A stretch of 9,589 nucleotides of DNA. Origin: an uncultured Porphyromonadaceae bacterium. Its GTDB lineage: Bacteria > Bacteroidota > Bacteroidia > Bacteroidales > Muribaculaceae. The stretch covers positions 1 through 9,589 of the forward strand of contig CAJMDR010000049.1 of NCBI GenBank assembly GCA_905212215.1, read 5' to 3'. Numbering within the stretch: the first letter of the stretch is position 1; each line of letters begins with the position of its first letter. A model generated the notes under the pieces. It saw only the letters and a list, made by a program, of their open reading frames with translations, made no database searches and had not been told where the DNA came from. This document shows positions 2,469 to 9,589 of the stretch, piece by piece. The position numbers were made by a program, and so were the translations under genes.

Positions 2469-3038
2469 TTAGTGTAACATGCGCAGTATGCTGTCGGGGT
2501 TCTGGTGCATCCGGCTGAAGGCCACAATCTTCTTACCCAAGTCTTTGATTGAGCCGCCTATGAAATATAAGGTGTCGTCAATTATCAGAAACCGGTCATG
2601 TACGTTTGAACAGTGCTTCACTTCTATCCGTGGATACTGTGCATTGTGACGGCGTAAATCATTGTTGATCTGTGAATGGTGCGGGTCGGTATAAATCGTC
2701 GCATGTACTCCTTCCCCGCGCTTGGTAAGGACTTTCAATACCCTGTCATCCACATAATTGTCTATGAGGATGATTCTATCTGTGGCTTTCCTTATTAAAT
2801 CGGATATAAGCGCATAGGCGTCGAATATCTGTCCTTCAAAGAAAAATCCCTCTATCGTCTCTGTATCTTTATTGTCAAGGCGCGTCAATATCTCATCAAT
2901 CCTCTTGTCAGTATCAGATTGATGCTTTTGCATGAGTAGCTGGTGATGTTCAACAGCTTCAAGACGTTGGAACACATGGGCATTGTGCATAAGAAATCTT
3001 CTCATGGCAGTAAAAGCCCTCATAATGCGGATATTCAC
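2469..3038 (-). CDS. ORF6N-family protein, C-terminal part (downstream of in-frame TGA)
   Basis: This is the 3' portion of a gene that begins at 3392; with the upstream part it makes a frame of 308 codons, the usual length of these proteins. The first residues (NIRIMRAFTAMRRFL) are the normal continuation of the ORF6N domain after its FTEQGVAML motif. A coiled-coil-like linker follows (residues 20-60, FQRLEAVEHHQLLMQKHQ). Then comes a C-terminal domain with GQIFDAY, LIDNYVDD and HDRFLIID. The last fits the phospholipase D pattern HxKxxxxD with Arg in place of Lys, before GGSIKDLGKK. Function is unproven; relatives occur in phages and mobile elements and are thought to bind DNA. Translation could restart at GTG (3038-3036) or at an ATG five codons later, but no ribosome site is seen. 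Likely a pseudogene fragment unless the TGA is read through or is an error. Ends in TAA. Confidence 0.75.
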   Translation of the reverse strand: MNIRIMRAFTAMRRFLMHNAHVFQRLEAVEHHQLLMQKHQSDTDKRIDEILTRLDNKDTETIEGFFFEGQIFDAYALISDLIRKATDRIILIDNYVDDRVLKVLTKRGEGVHATIYTDPHHSQINNDLRRHNAQYPRIEVKHCSNVHDRFLIIDDTLYFIGGSIKDLGKKIVAFSRMHQNPDSILRMLH

Positions 3039-3059
3039 CTCTATGGCAGTGTCTGATTT

Positions 3060-3392
3060 TCAAACACTACTTAACATGGCCACTCCTTGTTCTGTAAAAG
3101 CAAAGGGCAAATATTTAAGATGTTTCCCTCGACCTGCGTTTAAGGTCGCAATTTGCGACCTTAAACATTCTTCCTTGGTAAGTTCGAACATAAAGTCTTC
3201 AGGAAATCTATTTATATTGCGCCTGACTTGTTCTTTCAATCGTTTCGTTTCAACGCCATATAGGCGAGCCAAGTCGCTGTCAATCATTACTTGTTGACCG
3301 CGAACCACATGGATAAGATTTTCAATGGGCAACAACGCATGACTATCATTGCCAATAGGCTCCAAACTTCTTTTATTTCCGGATTCTTCCAT
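3060..3392 (-). CDS. ORF6N domain protein, N-terminal part ending at in-frame TGA
   Basis: This 110-residue product carries nearly the whole ORF6N DNA-binding domain: VMIDSDLARLYGVETKRLKEQ (about 35-55), NRFPEDFMFELTKEE (60-74) and the end FTEQGVAMLSSV. Family members continue LxSDTAIEVNIRIMRAF; here the Leu codon is TGA, and KSDTAIEV follows in the same frame. One T-to-G change (TTA to TGA) would explain it. The ATG at 3392 is chosen because it gives the normal N-terminal length and lies some 20 bases downstream of a TAnnTTTG box. Whether 110 residues fold and bind DNA alone is unknown. A perfect 29-base palindrome (3138-3166) lies within this coding part and encodes LRSQIATLN. The SMR transporter gene is divergent from it. 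Confidence 0.75.
   Translation of the reverse strand: MEESGNKRSLEPIGNDSHALLPIENLIHVVRGQQVMIDSDLARLYGVETKRLKEQVRRNINRFPEDFMFELTKEECLRSQIATLNAGRGKHLKYLPFAFTEQGVAMLSSV
3138..3166. repeat. 29-base perfect palindrome inside the ORF6N gene
   Basis: GTTTAAGGTCGCAA (3138-3151) is followed by one T and then its exact reverse complement (3153-3166). On the minus strand it encodes residues LRSQIATLN. Perfect 14-base arms with a single centre base are far beyond chance for coding DNA. Possible roles are autoregulation by the ORF6N protein, an mRNA hairpin, or a protein-binding or cleavage site; none is shown. Confidence 0.8.
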
Positions 3393-3558: not shown

Positions 3559-3619
3559 CGGCGCCTTGGAAGGAGTCGCCGGGAATTCCTGCAGCCCTCG
3601 AACAGGCTTTTTTGTGATT

Positions 3620-3943
3620 ATGAGCTGGATAATATTGATTCTGGCAGGGTTGATGGAGGTGGGGTTTACTTTCTGTCTCGGCAAGACGAAATCTGCAACG
3701 GGGCATGAATTAGTGTACTGGTGGGCTGGATTTCTTGTAGCGTTGGGCCTGAGTATGTTCCTGATGGCAAAGGCAGCTGAAAAACTACCTATCGGGACTG
3801 TCTATCCGGTCTGGACCGGCATAGGGGCAGTGGGTGCCGTAATTGTCGGCATAATATTCTTTCACGAGCCGGCTTCTTTCTGGAGAATTTTCTTCATCAC
3901 CACCCTTATATTGTCAATTATAGGACTGAAAGTGCTGGGGTGA
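3620..3943 (+). CDS. Small multidrug resistance (SMR) family transporter, SugE/Gdx-like
   Basis: The product has 107 residues and four membrane helices (about 3-20, 31-50, 57-81, 85-105), the normal SMR size. The essential membrane Glu is E13 (LMEVG). The third helix carries the family signature IGTVYPVWTGIGAVGA (58-73) with Y62 and W65, and the end IIGLK matches the SugE/Gdx branch. Known: SMR proteins are dual-topology dimers that exchange protons for guanidinium or quaternary ammonium compounds. Odd: the first helix reads EVGFTFCLGKTK, whereas Gdx proteins usually have EVVWA there, so the substrate is uncertain. The ATG at 3620 is preferred over a TTG at 3566, because MSWIILILAG is the standard N-terminus and the 18 extra residues look non-coding. 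It is single-gene, since EmrE-type paired partners are not adjacent. It converges with the dehydratase gene. Confidence 0.9.
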   Translation: MSWIILILAGLMEVGFTFCLGKTKSATGHELVYWWAGFLVALGLSMFLMAKAAEKLPIGTVYPVWTGIGAVGAVIVGIIFFHEPASFWRIFFITTLILSIIGLKVLG

Positions 3944-4023: not shown

Positions 4024-5646
4024 TCAGTCAGTTTTTTTGTCGTATTTCTCGAATACGGAGTGACGTGATATGAACTCGGGAACTGTTTCCTTCATGAGAC
4101 ATATCATGTCGGGAATCATCACATCTTCTGCAAGATTCTCCAGTTGCTCGTTGACGTTTCTGGCTTCGGAGTAGTCATATTCTCTCACCTTAGCCACGAA
4201 GATGCGCTGATGTTCTGTGGGGATGGTGTTCTCCTTGGTTGCCAATACTTCTTCATAGAGTTTTTCTCCCGGACGCAGGCCGGTATACTCTATCTGTATG
4301 TCGCGGCCTAATTCGAGTCCAGCCAGTTTCACCATGCGTTCGGCAAGGGTGGCTATTTTTACAGATTCGCCCATGTCGAAGACGAAGATCTGAGTGCCGG
4401 TGGAGAACGTTGCAGCTTCCATAACCAGGCGGCATGCCTCGGGAATAGTCATGAAGAAGCGGCGTATTTCGGGGTGGGTGACGGTGAGCGGTCCGCCGTT
4501 CTCTATCTGCTCGCGGAAACGTGGTATTACGGAGCCGTTTGAGCCGAGGACATTGCCGAAACGGGTGGTGACGAAAGTGGTCTTGCCCTTCATGCGTCCG
4601 CTTTCTATGGCGAGGCCGAGGCTCTGCACATATATCTCGGCAAGGCGTTTGGTGCAACCCATTACGTTGGTAGGATTGACTGCCTTGTCGGTGGAAATCA
4701 TGACCATCTTGTCAACATCATATTCGATGCATTTGTCGGCAACATTGCGTGAGCCTACTACATTGGTCAGCACCGCCTCGCATGGATTTTCTTCCATCAA
4801 CGGCACATGCTTGTATGCTGCGGCGTGGAATACTACCTGCGGATGATATTTGCGGAAAACGAAATCAAGGCGTCGCGGCAGACGCACATCGCCAATTACC
4901 GGGACGAAGTTGAGCGACGGATACTTGTCTTCCAACTCCAGTCGTATGTTGTGAAGCGGTGTCTCGGCATTGTCGAATAGTATGAGCTGACGCACGCCGA
5001 AAGTGGCGAGCTGACGGCATAATTCAGAGCCGATGGATCCTGCTGCGCCCGTGACGAGCACTACTTTGTCGCGGAAATTGGCTACTATCTCGTTCATGGA
5101 GATTTTTATTTCCGGCCGTCCCAGCAGATCTTCGATGCGGATTTTGCGTATATAGTTGCTTAGCTTCTGATTTTCTGAAATCTCGTCGATGCCCGGGGTG
5201 ATGTATGTGCGCACATCTATGTCGTGGCAATATGTGATGAGCCTGTCCTGCTCGGACCTGGCGTCTGCGACCTGCGAGAATAGGATCCCGTCAATCTCAT
5301 GCGCCAAAGTGAGGGCGCTGAGGTCTCTGGCGTTCTCAAAGTAATACACCTTCAGCCCATAAAGCTGGTGGCCTTTCAGCTCGCGGCCATAGGTGATGAA
5401 GCCTGCCACTTCATAATGATGTGAAGAACGCAAGCGCGGCACCACGGACGCAGATTTGTTGTTGACGCCATAGACGAGGATGCGTTTGATGTGGTTGTTG
5501 CGCACCCGCTTCTTGCGGATGATGTCGTAGACCACAATCATTGCCAGCCGCACCAGAACGAGCAGGAAGACGGTGAACAGGAAGTCTATGATGATGAGAC
5601 CATAGAGCAGACCGTTGCCGATTTTGAGTGAGGAGAAAGCCAGCAT
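4024..5646 (-). CDS. FlaA1/CapD-type nucleotide-sugar 4,6-dehydratase, catalytic part (downstream of in-frame TAG)
   Basis: This 540-residue part holds one membrane helix (about 13-42), a CoA-binding-like Rossmann domain (54-180, ILVYGVNNKSA) and the dehydratase domain. The NAD(P) loop is TGAAGSIG (199-206). Ser, Asp and Lys of ISTDK (317-321) and the MxxxK pair of NVMGCTK (M329, K333) fit the Ser-Met-Lys triad of this group, in which Met replaces the usual Tyr. RPGEKLYEE (458-466) is also typical. Known: WbpM, PglF and CapD relatives dehydrate UDP-GlcNAc to a 4-keto-6-deoxy sugar for capsule, O-antigen or protein glycans at the inner membrane face. With the 102-residue upstream piece the frame is 646 codons, the full family size; only one TAG breaks it. 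The ATG at 5646 lies two codons after the TAG, so restart is possible, and soluble short homologues such as FlaA1 work without the N-terminal helices. Ends in TGA. Confidence 0.85.
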   Translation of the reverse strand: MLAFSSLKIGNGLLYGLIIIDFLFTVFLLVLVRLAMIVVYDIIRKKRVRNNHIKRILVYGVNNKSASVVPRLRSSHHYEVAGFITYGRELKGHQLYGLKVYYFENARDLSALTLAHEIDGILFSQVADARSEQDRLITYCHDIDVRTYITPGIDEISENQKLSNYIRKIRIEDLLGRPEIKISMNEIVANFRDKVVLVTGAAGSIGSELCRQLATFGVRQLILFDNAETPLHNIRLELEDKYPSLNFVPVIGDVRLPRRLDFVFRKYHPQVVFHAAAYKHVPLMEENPCEAVLTNVVGSRNVADKCIEYDVDKMVMISTDKAVNPTNVMGCTKRLAEIYVQSLGLAIESGRMKGKTTFVTTRFGNVLGSNGSVIPRFREQIENGGPLTVTHPEIRRFFMTIPEACRLVMEAATFSTGTQIFVFDMGESVKIATLAERMVKLAGLELGRDIQIEYTGLRPGEKLYEEVLATKENTIPTEHQRIFVAKVREYDYSEARNVNEQLENLAEDVMIPDMICLMKETVPEFISRHSVFEKYDKKTD

Positions 5647-5652
5647 GGCTAT

Positions 5653-5961
5653 CTACAGAAGGAATTCCTTTCCTGCCACTGCCATACATATGCGGCCTGT
5701 CTCGCGCAGGGTGGAATAGCGTATGATTGCGCGGTAAACCCTGAAAAATACGAATGAGAAGGCGGAAGCTACTGCCGAGCCTATAATCCAGGTAAGTACC
5801 GTTTCCGTGTCCAGCGCAAGCTGAGGCATGATGATGAAGAGGACTGAAAAGACGCCCAGACTGCCAAGTAAGGATATGAAAATGTCAAGAGCCAACACAA
5901 CCTGAGCCCGCAGGTAAGTGTTGCTCTGCAATTTATTGGCAAATTCTTTAAGACTACCCAT
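5653..5961 (-). CDS. N-terminal membrane part of the FlaA1/CapD-type dehydratase, ending at in-frame TAG
   Basis: The 102 residues carry two membrane helices (about 24-46, ALDIFISLLGSLGVFSVLF, and 58-74) and the conserved stretch FRVYRAIIRYSTLRETGRI before the third helix. The TAG falls after KEFLL, inside what should be helix three, and the frame goes on with IAMLAF. Full-length relatives have this four-helix region fused to the catalytic half, so this is not an independent gene. The ATG at 5961 is chosen because it gives the usual N-terminus, with a -7 box some 40 bases upstream and no Shine-Dalgarno sequence. Alone it has no predicted activity. TAG could come by one base change from TTG, TGG, TAT/TAC, CAG or others; a hydrophobic codon such as TTG fits a membrane helix best. 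Confidence 0.75.
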   Translation of the reverse strand: MGSLKEFANKLQSNTYLRAQVVLALDIFISLLGSLGVFSVLFIIMPQLALDTETVLTWIIGSAVASAFSFVFFRVYRAIIRYSTLRETGRICMAVAGKEFLL

Positions 5962-6025: not shown

Positions 6026-6058
6026 TCGCAGAAATCATTTGACAACCAGTTTCTGCGA
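6026..6058 (-). terminator. Possible terminator at the protease 3' end
   Basis: TCGCAGAAA and TTTCTGCGA (9-bp arms, 6026-6034 and 6050-6058) span the protease stop codon at 6035-6037. On the minus strand a run of six T (6015-6010) follows about ten bases later, further away than in a classical terminator. A competing hairpin (6050-6066, 7-bp arms) shares one arm. Confidence 0.35.
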
Positions 6059-8158
6059 TGCAGAAAATCCTGTGCCTGTTACCCTAAGGATATATATTCC
6101 CGGCCATTGCGGTAAAGTAGTCTCGAAACTCGTTCCGGAAGCCTGCTGAGCCTGAATAAGCCGTCCGTCGGCGTTATAAAACTCTACCCTGCCCTGTTGC
6201 AAACAGCCTGGCACCACACATTCTATGCGGCTGCCGGCGGAATATGAATTGTCAAGGAACCGGATAGAAAGGCGAGGCGAAGAATCCGTCTGTACACCTT
6301 TCACACTGAAACGCTCTATGGCATATTTAAGCCCGGCATAAGCATCTATGCAGCCGTAAGCACTGTTCTGCGGGAACCTTTCACTTACATTACGGTTTGA
6401 AGTCTTTTCCAATATTTCTTCAATGTCGTTGCGGGTCAAGGAAGGTACCGCCTCCAGCCATAATGCAGCCACACCCGCTGCCGTGGGCGATGACATGGAC
6501 GTTCCGGAATCATGTCCCCATACATAACGTTTACCATCAATGACTGTGTCGCATACATAATTACGTTCCATTCCGGGAGCTTCCGGGTAAAGAGCCGCTA
6601 CCACAAGCGAGCCGGGAGCTAAAATCTGGGGCAGTGTCTTGCCGTCGAGAGTAGTACCATAGCTGCTGAAACGGTTCGGCTCATTGATGCCGCCGAATTT
6701 CATGGAAGCCAATGTTACCAGCTCTCCACCCATTGTGCGAACTGATTCACGGCCATTTATCATGCCGACACCAATCACATGAGGAGAAGCGGCAAAATCG
6801 CTAATGTTTTCAGCAGCAGTTCCATACATGAAACCGGGAGCCTCCCAGCTTACCAGCGTGTTGCGGGATGCGTTGGCATATATCCTCATGTCGGCACCCT
6901 GTGGCGAACGGATAGCGAAGGCAAGCATGGGTATATCACCGGGCATATATTCGTCCACTGAACCTTCGAGGTCAATGTAGAACCTCTTGTCCGGGCCATA
7001 GACACCCATTTCCAGAGTCAGATTGCCTGCCAGGCAGTCATGTAGTTGAGGCATGGCTTCCTTGCATGTGGCATTGGTGGAAACAAGAGTGATTTTCCCT
7101 CCTTCCGCTGCAACCTGAGCCGGAGAGAACCAGGGACCGACATATTTAACCTTATCGCGGTGAGTAACCATTATCTGAATTTCAGCACCAAGAGTATCAC
7201 GACTCCAAGCCTCAAGACCTATTATATGGTTCTTTCCTGTGTGATACTTCTGGAACATGCTTCTTACCGTTGTTGTGTCTACGCTGAAATTGCGTTGTAT
7301 GGAAGATGTCCTCTGTCCGTCGTTACCTGCTGAGAAGAAGATAGTCTGTCCTGCCTCGGCAATGGTACGAGATAGAAGACCAACCGGCGAAGTACCGTCG
7401 CGAGGACCATTGTCAGAACCAAGGCTAAGGCTCATAACGGTTGGTTTGCCTACGTTCAGCCCATACTCGGAAACCGCCTTCATGCCGTAGATTATTTCAT
7501 CGTCATAAATTACGGCTCCGGTACCTACCAATACCAGCTCTGCATCGGGAGCGATACCCATGTAAGGATTCCCTTTCCAGCTTCCTGCGGCTGTAGACGC
7601 GGTGTGAGTACCATGTCCTCCTTCAGAAGGGTCTACAGGAGATGCCGCTATTTCTTCCGGAGTGCGGTACCAATCGGCATGCAACATGCCGTCTTTCCTT
7701 TCTTCGCTACTTTCAGTAAAGACATAAGCCTTTACGCGGGAATTACCCTCACTGTCATTAAAGGTTATATGTCGAGGATCTATTCCACTATCTATTATGC
7801 CTATGACCACACCTTTGCCGGTATAGGGAATGATATCGGGCACATGATTCTCGCCGGGAAGGATCTTGTCGACGCCTATATATGGGCGCGAAGTATTGAG
7901 TGTGACATATGCCTTTTTGGGGCGGCCGAGATAATTGAACTCGCTTTTGGAACAGTACGACTGTAACGAATCCGTCGGTACACCGAGCAGGACAAGATTC
8001 CCTGCCCTGATAGCAGTCTTGCAATCATCCGGAAAATATGTTTCTGAGGCTGATTCGACCCATATTCCGACTCTTTCTTTGGGAGTGGCAGAAAAACTGA
8101 CAACATTGACACTCAACGCCATCAGCAGAACAATAATGATATTAGGTAACTTTCTCAC
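6035..8158 (-). CDS. Secreted subtilisin-like (S8) serine protease with T9SS-type C-terminal domain
   Basis: The 707-residue protein begins with a signal peptide (RKLPN, hydrophobic 7-20, likely cleaved near 24). The S8 catalytic residues are all present: Asp123 in GIIDSGID, His182 in GHGTHTAS, oxyanion Asn279 in FSAGND and Ser554 in SGTSMSSPTAAG. The 275 residues between Asn279 and Ser554 are much longer than in subtilisin and form an inserted beta-rich domain, as in larger extracellular subtilases. The last 50 residues (VEFYNADGRL ... PGIYILRV ... QKLVVK) match type A T9SS sorting domains, so the enzyme is probably released or anchored outside the outer membrane. Inferred role: degradation of host, dietary or bacterial protein. 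The start is GTG at 8158; it gives the only complete signal peptide, and the promoter ends four bases before it. Ends in TGA. The gene is intact, unlike its two interrupted neighbours. Confidence 0.93.
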   Translation of the reverse strand: MRKLPNIIIVLLMALSVNVVSFSATPKERVGIWVESASETYFPDDCKTAIRAGNLVLLGVPTDSLQSYCSKSEFNYLGRPKKAYVTLNTSRPYIGVDKILPGENHVPDIIPYTGKGVVIGIIDSGIDPRHITFNDSEGNSRVKAYVFTESSEERKDGMLHADWYRTPEEIAASPVDPSEGGHGTHTASTAAGSWKGNPYMGIAPDAELVLVGTGAVIYDDEIIYGMKAVSEYGLNVGKPTVMSLSLGSDNGPRDGTSPVGLLSRTIAEAGQTIFFSAGNDGQRTSSIQRNFSVDTTTVRSMFQKYHTGKNHIIGLEAWSRDTLGAEIQIMVTHRDKVKYVGPWFSPAQVAAEGGKITLVSTNATCKEAMPQLHDCLAGNLTLEMGVYGPDKRFYIDLEGSVDEYMPGDIPMLAFAIRSPQGADMRIYANASRNTLVSWEAPGFMYGTAAENISDFAASPHVIGVGMINGRESVRTMGGELVTLASMKFGGINEPNRFSSYGTTLDGKTLPQILAPGSLVVAALYPEAPGMERNYVCDTVIDGKRYVWGHDSGTSMSSPTAAGVAALWLEAVPSLTRNDIEEILEKTSNRNVSERFPQNSAYGCIDAYAGLKYAIERFSVKGVQTDSSPRLSIRFLDNSYSAGSRIECVVPGCLQQGRVEFYNADGRLIQAQQASGTSFETTLPQWPGIYILRVTGTGFSASQKLVVK

Positions 8159-8162
8159 CTTG

Positions 8163-8194
8163 CAAAGTTAATAAATAAACTGAATGTAAGCAAA
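8163..8194 (-). promoter_or_regulatory. Bacteroidetes-type promoter of the S8 protease gene
   Basis: On the minus strand, TTTG (8194-8191), exactly 20 bases, then TAACTTTG (8170-8163): a consensus match. The -7 box ends four bases before the GTG start codon at 8158, so transcription should begin at about 8159, giving a leader of zero to one base. Confidence 0.75.
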
Positions 8195-8214
8195 TTTTTC
8201 ATACTCTTTATCAA

Positions 8215-8233
8215 TTGAAAACAATATTTTCAA
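8215..8233. promoter_or_regulatory. Inverted repeat upstream of groESL, candidate activator site
   Basis: TTGAAAA and TTTTCAA enclose CAATA. The 9-mer GAAAACAAT (8217-8225), part of this repeat, returns inverted as ATTGTTTTC at 8262-8270. The two lie about 90 and 47 bases upstream of the start predicted from the sigma-54 promoter, the first in the range used by sigma-54 activators. It could equally serve the divergent protease gene. Confidence 0.4.
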
Positions 8234-8285
8234 ATAGAAACGCAACTAAAACAGCTCGACAATTGTTTTCACAACGAAAATGCCT

Positions 8286-8302
8286 TTGGCACGAATATTG
8301 CT
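8286..8302 (+). promoter_or_regulatory. Sigma-54 (-24/-12) promoter of groESL
   Basis: TTGGCACG, four bases, TTGCT matches the sigma-54 consensus YTGGCACG-N4-TTGCW at every fixed position. GG (8288-8289) and GC (8300-8301) have the required 12-base spacing. The predicted start is near 8313, a leader of about 45 bases to the groES ATG. No TAnnTTTG box and no CIRCE element is found in the 199-base gap; the nearest primary-type box, TGCCTTTG at 8281-8288, misses one base and lacks a -33 TTG. Confidence 0.7.
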
Positions 8303-8357
8303 GATAACATTACAGAAATAAAACCTGAAAAATAACCATAAAACACACATATCAATC

Positions 8358-8630
8358 ATGAATATCAAACCTCTGGCTGATAGAGTACTCATTCTCCCGA
8401 CCGCTGCCGAAGAAGTAACGCTCGGTGGTATCATCATTCCCGACACCGCGAAAGAAAAACCGCTTCGCGGCACTGTCAAGGCCGTAGGCAACGGCACCAA
8501 AGATGAAGAAATGGTGCTGAAAGAAGGAGATCAGGTTCTGTACGGCAAATATGCCGGTACCGAACTGGAACTGGACGGTGAGAAATATCTTATCATGCGC
8601 CAGAACGATGTTCTGGCTGTAATAGGCTAA
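8358..8630 (+). CDS. groES: Co-chaperonin GroES
   Basis: The 90-residue protein has the full GroES pattern: [11 protein letters not shown] at the start, the mobile loop that contacts GroEL (about 16-33, [18 protein letters not shown], with the hydrophobic GGIII core), [22 protein letters not shown] and the end [14 protein letters not shown]. It forms the seven-membered lid of the GroEL folding chamber in the cytoplasm. The ATG at 8358 follows an A-rich leader without a Shine-Dalgarno sequence, as is common in this phylum. groEL starts 15 bases after its stop, so the two are co-transcribed. A perfect sigma-54 promoter lies upstream, which is unusual for a housekeeping heat-shock operon. Confidence 0.98.

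Positions 8631-9589
<959 letters not shown>

Follow-up and report, generated by a model that had tools for sequence, protein, structure and literature searches.

A conserved, probable sigma-54-type promoter upstream of groES-groEL in a Bacteroidota contig and a candidate receiver-less activator

The regulation of essential chaperones in Bacteroidota, a dominant phylum of the gut, is poorly described. The closest described system is that of Flavobacterium psychrophilum, where mapped transcription starts revealed a -24/-12 motif (SM4) at groESL, lon, dnaK, grpE-dnaJ, htpG, clpB, and other genes (PMC9723704); no activator is named for the SM4 promoters in the available text. The SM5 table of the same paper reports THC0290_0733, a probable sigma-54-dependent regulator, together with LptE (0732), groES being 0729 (PMC9723704). 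Since a sigma-54-type groESL promoter has been reported in this species, the sigma-54 control of groESL in Bacteroidota is already known in kind. A predicted sigma-54 control of GroEL, GroES, GrpE, DnaJ, and DnaK is enriched in Bacteroidota and Planctomycetota (PMC12316311). The same paper calls GroES of B. thetaiotaomicron sigma-54-dependent; the work cited for this (reference 80) deals with a Blattabacterium genome and is, judging by its title, an unlikely source. As for other regulatory elements, Porphyromonas gingivalis is described as having no classic CIRCE (PMC3646045), and in PMC7366714, from which the consensus of the primary sigma factor (sigma-ABfr) was taken, nothing on sigma-54 appears in 12 of 16 places of the text and rpoN occurs 0 times.

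The -24/-12 element and its conservation

The window, i.e., the whole stretch of 9,589 nucleotides that was analysed, ends with groES (8358..8630, + strand, 90 aa) and the first 314 aa of groEL (8646..9587, + strand), which continues past the window end; both genes were assigned by NCBIfam. Upstream of groES and divergent to it, the - strand (6035-8158) encodes a subtilase-like protein with a C-terminal type IX secretion sorting domain. The remaining part of the window contains a PseB-like nucleotide-sugar dehydratase on the - strand (4024-5646 and 5653-5961), whose N-terminal membrane part is apparently encoded by a second frame, the two frames being possibly one gene in two pieces, and two adjoining short frames of 110 and 189 aa (2469-3392, - strand) that may be one split gene. 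It also contains a tRNA gene (2280-2367), a SugE-like small multidrug resistance efflux protein (3566-3943, + strand) whose NCBIfam match falls below the curated cut-off, and a long repeat protein (3-1832, + strand) with AGGIVG-type repeats and no NCBIfam match.

The gap of 199 bases between the divergent genes (8159-8357) serves both groES and the subtilase gene. On its + strand, the 17 bases TTGGCACGAATATTGCT (8286..8302) have the layout of a sigma-54 -24/-12 promoter, TTGGCACG-AATA-TTGCT, in which the -24 element TTGGCACG occupies positions 8286..8293 and the -12 element TTGCT positions 8298..8302. The earlier note had stated that this site matches all the fixed positions with a correct GG-GC spacing, and this was confirmed: 13 of the 13 fixed positions agree, and ten bases (N10) lie between GG (8288-8289) and GC (8300-8301). 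The spacer between the promoter and the groES ATG (8358) is 55 bases long, and the promoter geometry predicts a transcript start about 12 bases past the GC, at 8312..8314 (+ strand). A scan of the window with up to three mismatches disclosed eight matches (the mean in shuffles being 5.2, with at least eight in 32 of 200 shuffles); seven of these have three mismatches each, and the site at 8286-8302, with none, is the only one below three. The arithmetic expectation of a full match, calculated for 12 fixed bases plus W on both strands of 9.6 kb, is about 0.0006.

The conservation of the site was analysed using the GroES sequence of the window as a query and retaining the best 80 of 586 Bacteroidota loci; the consensus was scored out of 13 over the 250 bases preceding groES, and L001 was left out as too short. 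At least 11/13 positions agree in 45 of 79 groES upstream regions, whereas among the other ORFs of these loci the same score was reached by 2 of 272 (best 80 of 586; Fisher 1e-32), one of the two being an htpG gene. A TGGCA-anchored site is located within 180 bases before groES in 78 of 81 sequences, window included (best 80 of 586 loci); none was found within that distance in L013 and L078, and L001 shows only 65 bases upstream. Some of the anchored sites are poor (that of L072 scores 6). The part constant across the sites is TGGCA...TG, where the constancy of TGGCA is by construction, being the selection condition; the base following TG at -12 varies among the 78 anchored sites (best 80 of 586 loci), with 38 C, 22 T, 17 A, and 1 G. 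The pattern GG-N10-GC, whose conservation the earlier note had proposed as a check, proves too strict, the site being kept in most loci and the C at -12 in 38/78. In the genus of G011, one of the genomes whose GroEL groups with that of the window (see below), the core TTGGCAY-N6-TG is present in 30/30 groES loci read. As for the -12 box, ATGC is found in 15 of 31 counted loci of other family members vs TTG followed by T, C, or A in 28 of 30 genus loci (L318-L346, L212). The earlier note cites sigma-54 control of groESL only for special copies; the site is no peculiarity of this organism, one of its kind preceding groES in most of the Bacteroidota loci fetched.

It had also been noted that no other good promoter is visible in the gap, which holds with one reservation: on its + strand (8159-8357), the perfect sigma-ABfr -7 consensus TAnnTTTG (PMC7366714) was not found, and a single box lies within one mismatch of it, i.e., the weak -7-like TGCCTTTG (8281..8288, + strand), which overlaps the -24 element. 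This box is the point of departure for a different reading of the locus, according to which groESL is transcribed by the primary sigma factor sigma-ABfr, the sigma-54 site adding no more than a second promoter induced by stress. A basal transcription would indeed be needed, essentiality having been reported for groES/EL of P. gingivalis (PMC3547785) and for groEL and groES of Bacteroides fragilis (PMC4072883); however, the only available box deviates from the consensus and coincides in part with a -24 element that the relatives keep in its sigma-54 form, so that a main role of sigma-ABfr appears unlikely, even if it deserves consideration. On the - strand of the same gap, positions 8170-8163 carry a perfect TAACTTTG (the sigma-ABfr -7 consensus) with an upstream TTTG, an arrangement that fits the divergent subtilase gene; the location of TAACTTTG just before the start at 8158 suggests that the subtilase message is nearly leaderless.

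Candidate activator, palindrome, and other regulators

The gene for sigma-54 (rpoN, PF04552) was found in 8/8 relative genomes tested, and activators with a PF00158 domain in 12/12 relative genomes, each with a match of E 4e-64 or better; since weak AAA+ matches to PF00158 also occur in 14/14 control genomes, only the strong matches were considered as activators. Most of the 12 genomes encode several such strong PF00158 proteins. In 14 of 80 groES loci (best 80 of 586), an activator gene is located on the same strand as groES and ends 1.7-2.8 kb upstream of it; these loci belong mostly to Flavobacteriia, with a few other Bacteroidota, and the frames are 393-435 aa long, that of L063 being cut by the locus end. 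The flanks of the groES loci extend to 4 kb at most, and the absence of the activator from the remaining loci means little. In L066 and L074, the gene order is activator, LptE, an unassigned protein, SecG, groES, and groEL; the Bacteroidales orthologue lies elsewhere in the genome, and in L113 it adjoins an LptE gene.

These proteins share a short N-terminus, an AAA+ domain with a GAFTGA-type loop, a long linker, and a Fis-type HTH. In the five proteins analysed with Pfam, 12-22 residues precede the AAA+ domain, the lid follows, and HTH_8 comes about 85-110 residues later; no receiver or sensor domain was found by Pfam in any of the five. The features of a PspF-type activator, i.e., AAA+, a GAFTGA-type loop, no N-terminal regulatory domain, and HTH_8, were therefore all found in the relatives. 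With a looser GAFTGA motif, the receiver-less protein was recovered in 11/12 genomes; the open frame of 416 aa in G006 (L092) is unclassified. In the activator tree, 25 receiver-less rows (24 distinct) form a single clade (support 100/100), apart from the receiver-bearing activators, among which long branches were flagged. Exactly one activator match (E<=1e-85) per genome is present in 59/59 genomes of the G011 family; these 59 were drawn from a larger group, and Muribaculaceae are among the named relatives in the GroEL tree. In P0093 (556 aa, PF00158 and PF04390), the activator frame seems to continue into an LptE-like sequence, and the activator frame of Prevotella communis (L107) is 567 aa long; an in-frame fusion of the activator with the outer-membrane lipoprotein is possible in both.

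It might be argued that groESL is served by another activator of the NtrC type, bearing a receiver, instead of the receiver-less protein. The multiplicity of strong PF00158 proteins in most of the 12 genomes points in this direction, as does F. psychrophilum, which has three PF00158 proteins and sigma-54 promoters in several expression clusters (PMC9723704). On the other side, only receiver-less activators were found in the groES loci (14/80; best 80 of 586, flanks up to 4 kb), and this protein is present once per genome in 59/59 family genomes, with helix changes that accompany the loss of a palindrome (see below); the involvement of a receiver-bearing activator is thus considered rather improbable.

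Of 78 loci (best 80 of 586), 50 carry the palindrome TGNCA-N3-TGNCA in the 150 bases that precede the -24 box, vs 0.26 expected in shuffles, a spacing of three between the half-sites being strongly preferred. Within 250 bases before groES it was found in 54 of 79 upstream regions (best 80 of 586 loci) vs 3 of 251 other upstream regions, and the TGNCA half-sites over the 78 loci (best 80 of 586) number 277 vs 57 in shuffles. On the basis of sequence comparison, the palindrome is perhaps the enhancer of the receiver-less activator. In some Flavobacteria it coincides with an apparent terminator hairpin after secG. Few loci of the other chaperone genes have it (dnaK 2/10, htpG 1/10, grpE 3/9, and Clp_N 0/20 loci), and therefore it is not linked to the activator in general, which counts against a simple regulon with one enhancer. 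A different palindrome, TTTTCACAAYGAAAA, shared by the window and L005, was also considered as an enhancer and dropped, the repeat resembling the intrinsic terminator of the upstream gene; repeats of this type were read as terminators by eye in L005 (same site as L212), L329, L324, and L340.

The textbook arrangement of other phyla, in which groESL is controlled by the HrcA/CIRCE repressor or by an RpoH-type heat-shock sigma factor, is very improbable here. HrcA was found in 0/12 relative genomes, and no CIRCE within four mismatches precedes any of 81 groES genes, window included and L001 in part (best 80 of 586 loci). RpoH above the curated cut-off (TIGR02392) was likewise found in 0/12 relative genomes; matches to TIGR02392 below the cut-off do occur in 11/12 genomes, and they probably correspond to the primary sigma factor.

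The motif was also searched at other chaperone genes. The genome of P. communis (L021, G009) contains 11 genome-wide matches with 0-1 mismatch, five of which precede groES, dnaK, grpE, htpG, and a Clp ATPase gene. The last of the five was at first sight a clpB, a reading that was dropped because NCBIfam coverage and start place it nearer ClpA/ClpC; since, in addition, its motif sits inside the end of the preceding helicase gene, it is the weakest of the five. G001 has a perfect motif before a Clp gene similar to that of P. communis (L196) and a 12/13 motif before a ClpB gene (L180). Over ten genomes, scores of at least 11 were obtained at 5/10 dnaK, 3/10 htpG, 3/9 grpE, and 8/20 Clp_N loci, where the 20 Clp_N loci correspond to 17 genes and several start codons, set mechanically, are uncertain; the match of L150 lies inside a frame, the frames of L159, L162, L168, and L169 are unreliable, and L177 is below the cut-off. 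Genome-wide, the motif with 0-1 mismatch is hardly enriched (68 vs 59 for a reversed-pattern control, six genomes), and therefore its signal is confined to particular genes. That the match in the window is itself a chance occurrence, as this near-control frequency might suggest, is scarcely credible, the same place and strand being kept before groES in most relatives and in 30/30 loci of the genus, so that conservation already refutes chance, except in the case that the element is kept for a function unrelated to sigma-54.

Near-loss of the palindrome in the lineage of the window

The region 8159..8285 of the window is the counterpart of that in which the putative enhancer TGNCA-N3-TGNCA is located in most relatives, and the palindrome is absent from it; over the 300 bases before groES, the best approximation has two mismatches. 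The GroEL of the window groups with those of G011, G012, G042, and G062 at 99/93 (bootstrap incompletely settled). The recognition helix of the receiver-less activator reads (S/A)ERTLYRK in 55 of 61 genomes (the 59 of the family plus G001 and G012), and its Glu is replaced in the four genomes G011, G012, G042, and G062 (4/4; Q, L, I, and I), the helix being unread in G041 and G061. In the best 120 of 7953 homologues of the G011 activator, the same residue is Q in 98, P in 19, S in 1, and E in 0, and it is unread in 2. The palindrome is present in 35 of 55 Glu-helix genomes vs 0 of 4 Glu-replaced ones (Fisher 0.02). The groES match was obtained in 34 of 41 genomes of the G011 genus, and 30 loci were read: the palindrome occurs in 2 of these 30 vs 35 of 58 loci from the other members of the family (Fisher 7e-7), these lineage p-values overstating independence because the species are related. 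One of the two palindromes of the genus, that of L337, includes the -24 box as one of its halves.

In the 31 upstream regions of this lineage (the 30 genus loci plus the window), no motif emerges that might replace the palindrome. The only common words above the shuffle maximum are AGAAATA and GAAATAA, which, judged by eye, belong to the stop codons of the genes upstream. In the same regions, TGNCA half-sites show a mild enrichment (24 vs 13 in shuffles), and therefore the loss of the palindrome is not shown as total.

Proposed mechanism and comparison with described systems

The proposal that sigma-54 controls groESL is well supported by the conservation of the site, by the presence in relatives of rpoN (8/8) and of activators (12/12), by the absence from relatives of HrcA and of RpoH above the curated cut-off (12/12), and by the mapped SM4 promoters of F. 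psychrophilum (PMC9723704). The element at 8286-8302 is, with good confidence, the likely promoter of groES-groEL, and the prediction is that a receiver-less AAA+ activator, of the kind encoded in 59/59 family genomes examined, opens it. Sigma-54 polymerase would sit closed at this site, and the activator would open the complex with ATP. Since the activator has no sensor domain, a control in trans is proposed: it may be held in check as PspF is, perhaps by a free chaperone (chaperone titration). In most relatives, the activator would dock at the palindrome and drive groESL; the organism of the window would possess this activator too, acting there in the absence of the usual enhancer or from another site. 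Other regulators act as well: the groES, dnaK, and clpB promoters of P. gingivalis are bound, and apparently repressed, by RprY (PMC3646045).

A wider picture can be put forward tentatively, as one that may well turn out otherwise: the heat-shock response of Bacteroidota would run on sigma-54, with a PspF-like activator, present once per genome and located beside groESL in many lineages, firing the chaperone promoters from TGNCA-N3-TGNCA; the genus of the window would have become enhancer-free, with the elsewhere invariant helix Glu changed to Q, P, L, I, or S and the -24/-12 core intact. If so, the activator that switches on an essential chaperonin in this genus would do so from solution or from a site of another kind. 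An activator-dependent promoter would be silent without its ATPase, and rpoN as well as one activator gene would then be conditionally essential. The comparison yields candidates for both the activator and the enhancer, together with a natural lineage in which the enhancer and the recognition helix changed jointly; the circuit is thereby directly testable in B. thetaiotaomicron or Flavobacterium johnsoniae. The observation is real, and the enhancer-loss variant surrounding the promoter is unusual. Searches of the open-access PMC literature, judged by titles and the beginnings of abstracts, disclosed no paper linking a receiver-less activator or a TGNCA palindrome to groESL in Bacteroidota; the assignment of the activator, the palindrome, and its loss were not met with there.

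As regards the systems already described, the receiver-less activator resembles PspF of Escherichia coli, which is held in check in trans: in both cases an AAA+ domain with a GAFTGA-type loop is followed by a C-terminal Fis-type HTH, with no receiver or sensor domain (none found by Pfam in the five proteins of the relatives). Unlike PspF, the activator of the relatives has about 85-110 residues between lid and HTH and is linked to LptE, SecG, and groESL. Some sigma-54 activators work without an upstream binding site; the enhancer-independent FlgR (Helicobacter) and CtcC (Chlamydia) are a possible model for the palindrome-less lineage of the window, with the difference that they have no DNA-binding domain, whereas the activator of the G011 lineage keeps its HTH in an altered form. 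The nif-coregulated groESL of rhizobia is likewise transcribed by sigma-54 RNA polymerase, as predicted for the groESL operon of the window; in rhizobia, however, this is an extra copy devoted to nitrogen fixation, whereas groES gave one match per genome in 59/59 family genomes. The nearest counterpart is represented by the SM4 promoters of F. psychrophilum, a member of the same phylum, where a -24/-12 element likewise precedes groES-groEL, in that case with mapped starts and at other chaperone genes too (PMC9723704); several Flavobacterium groES sites end in TGAA, unlike that of the window, which has a perfect GC at -12.
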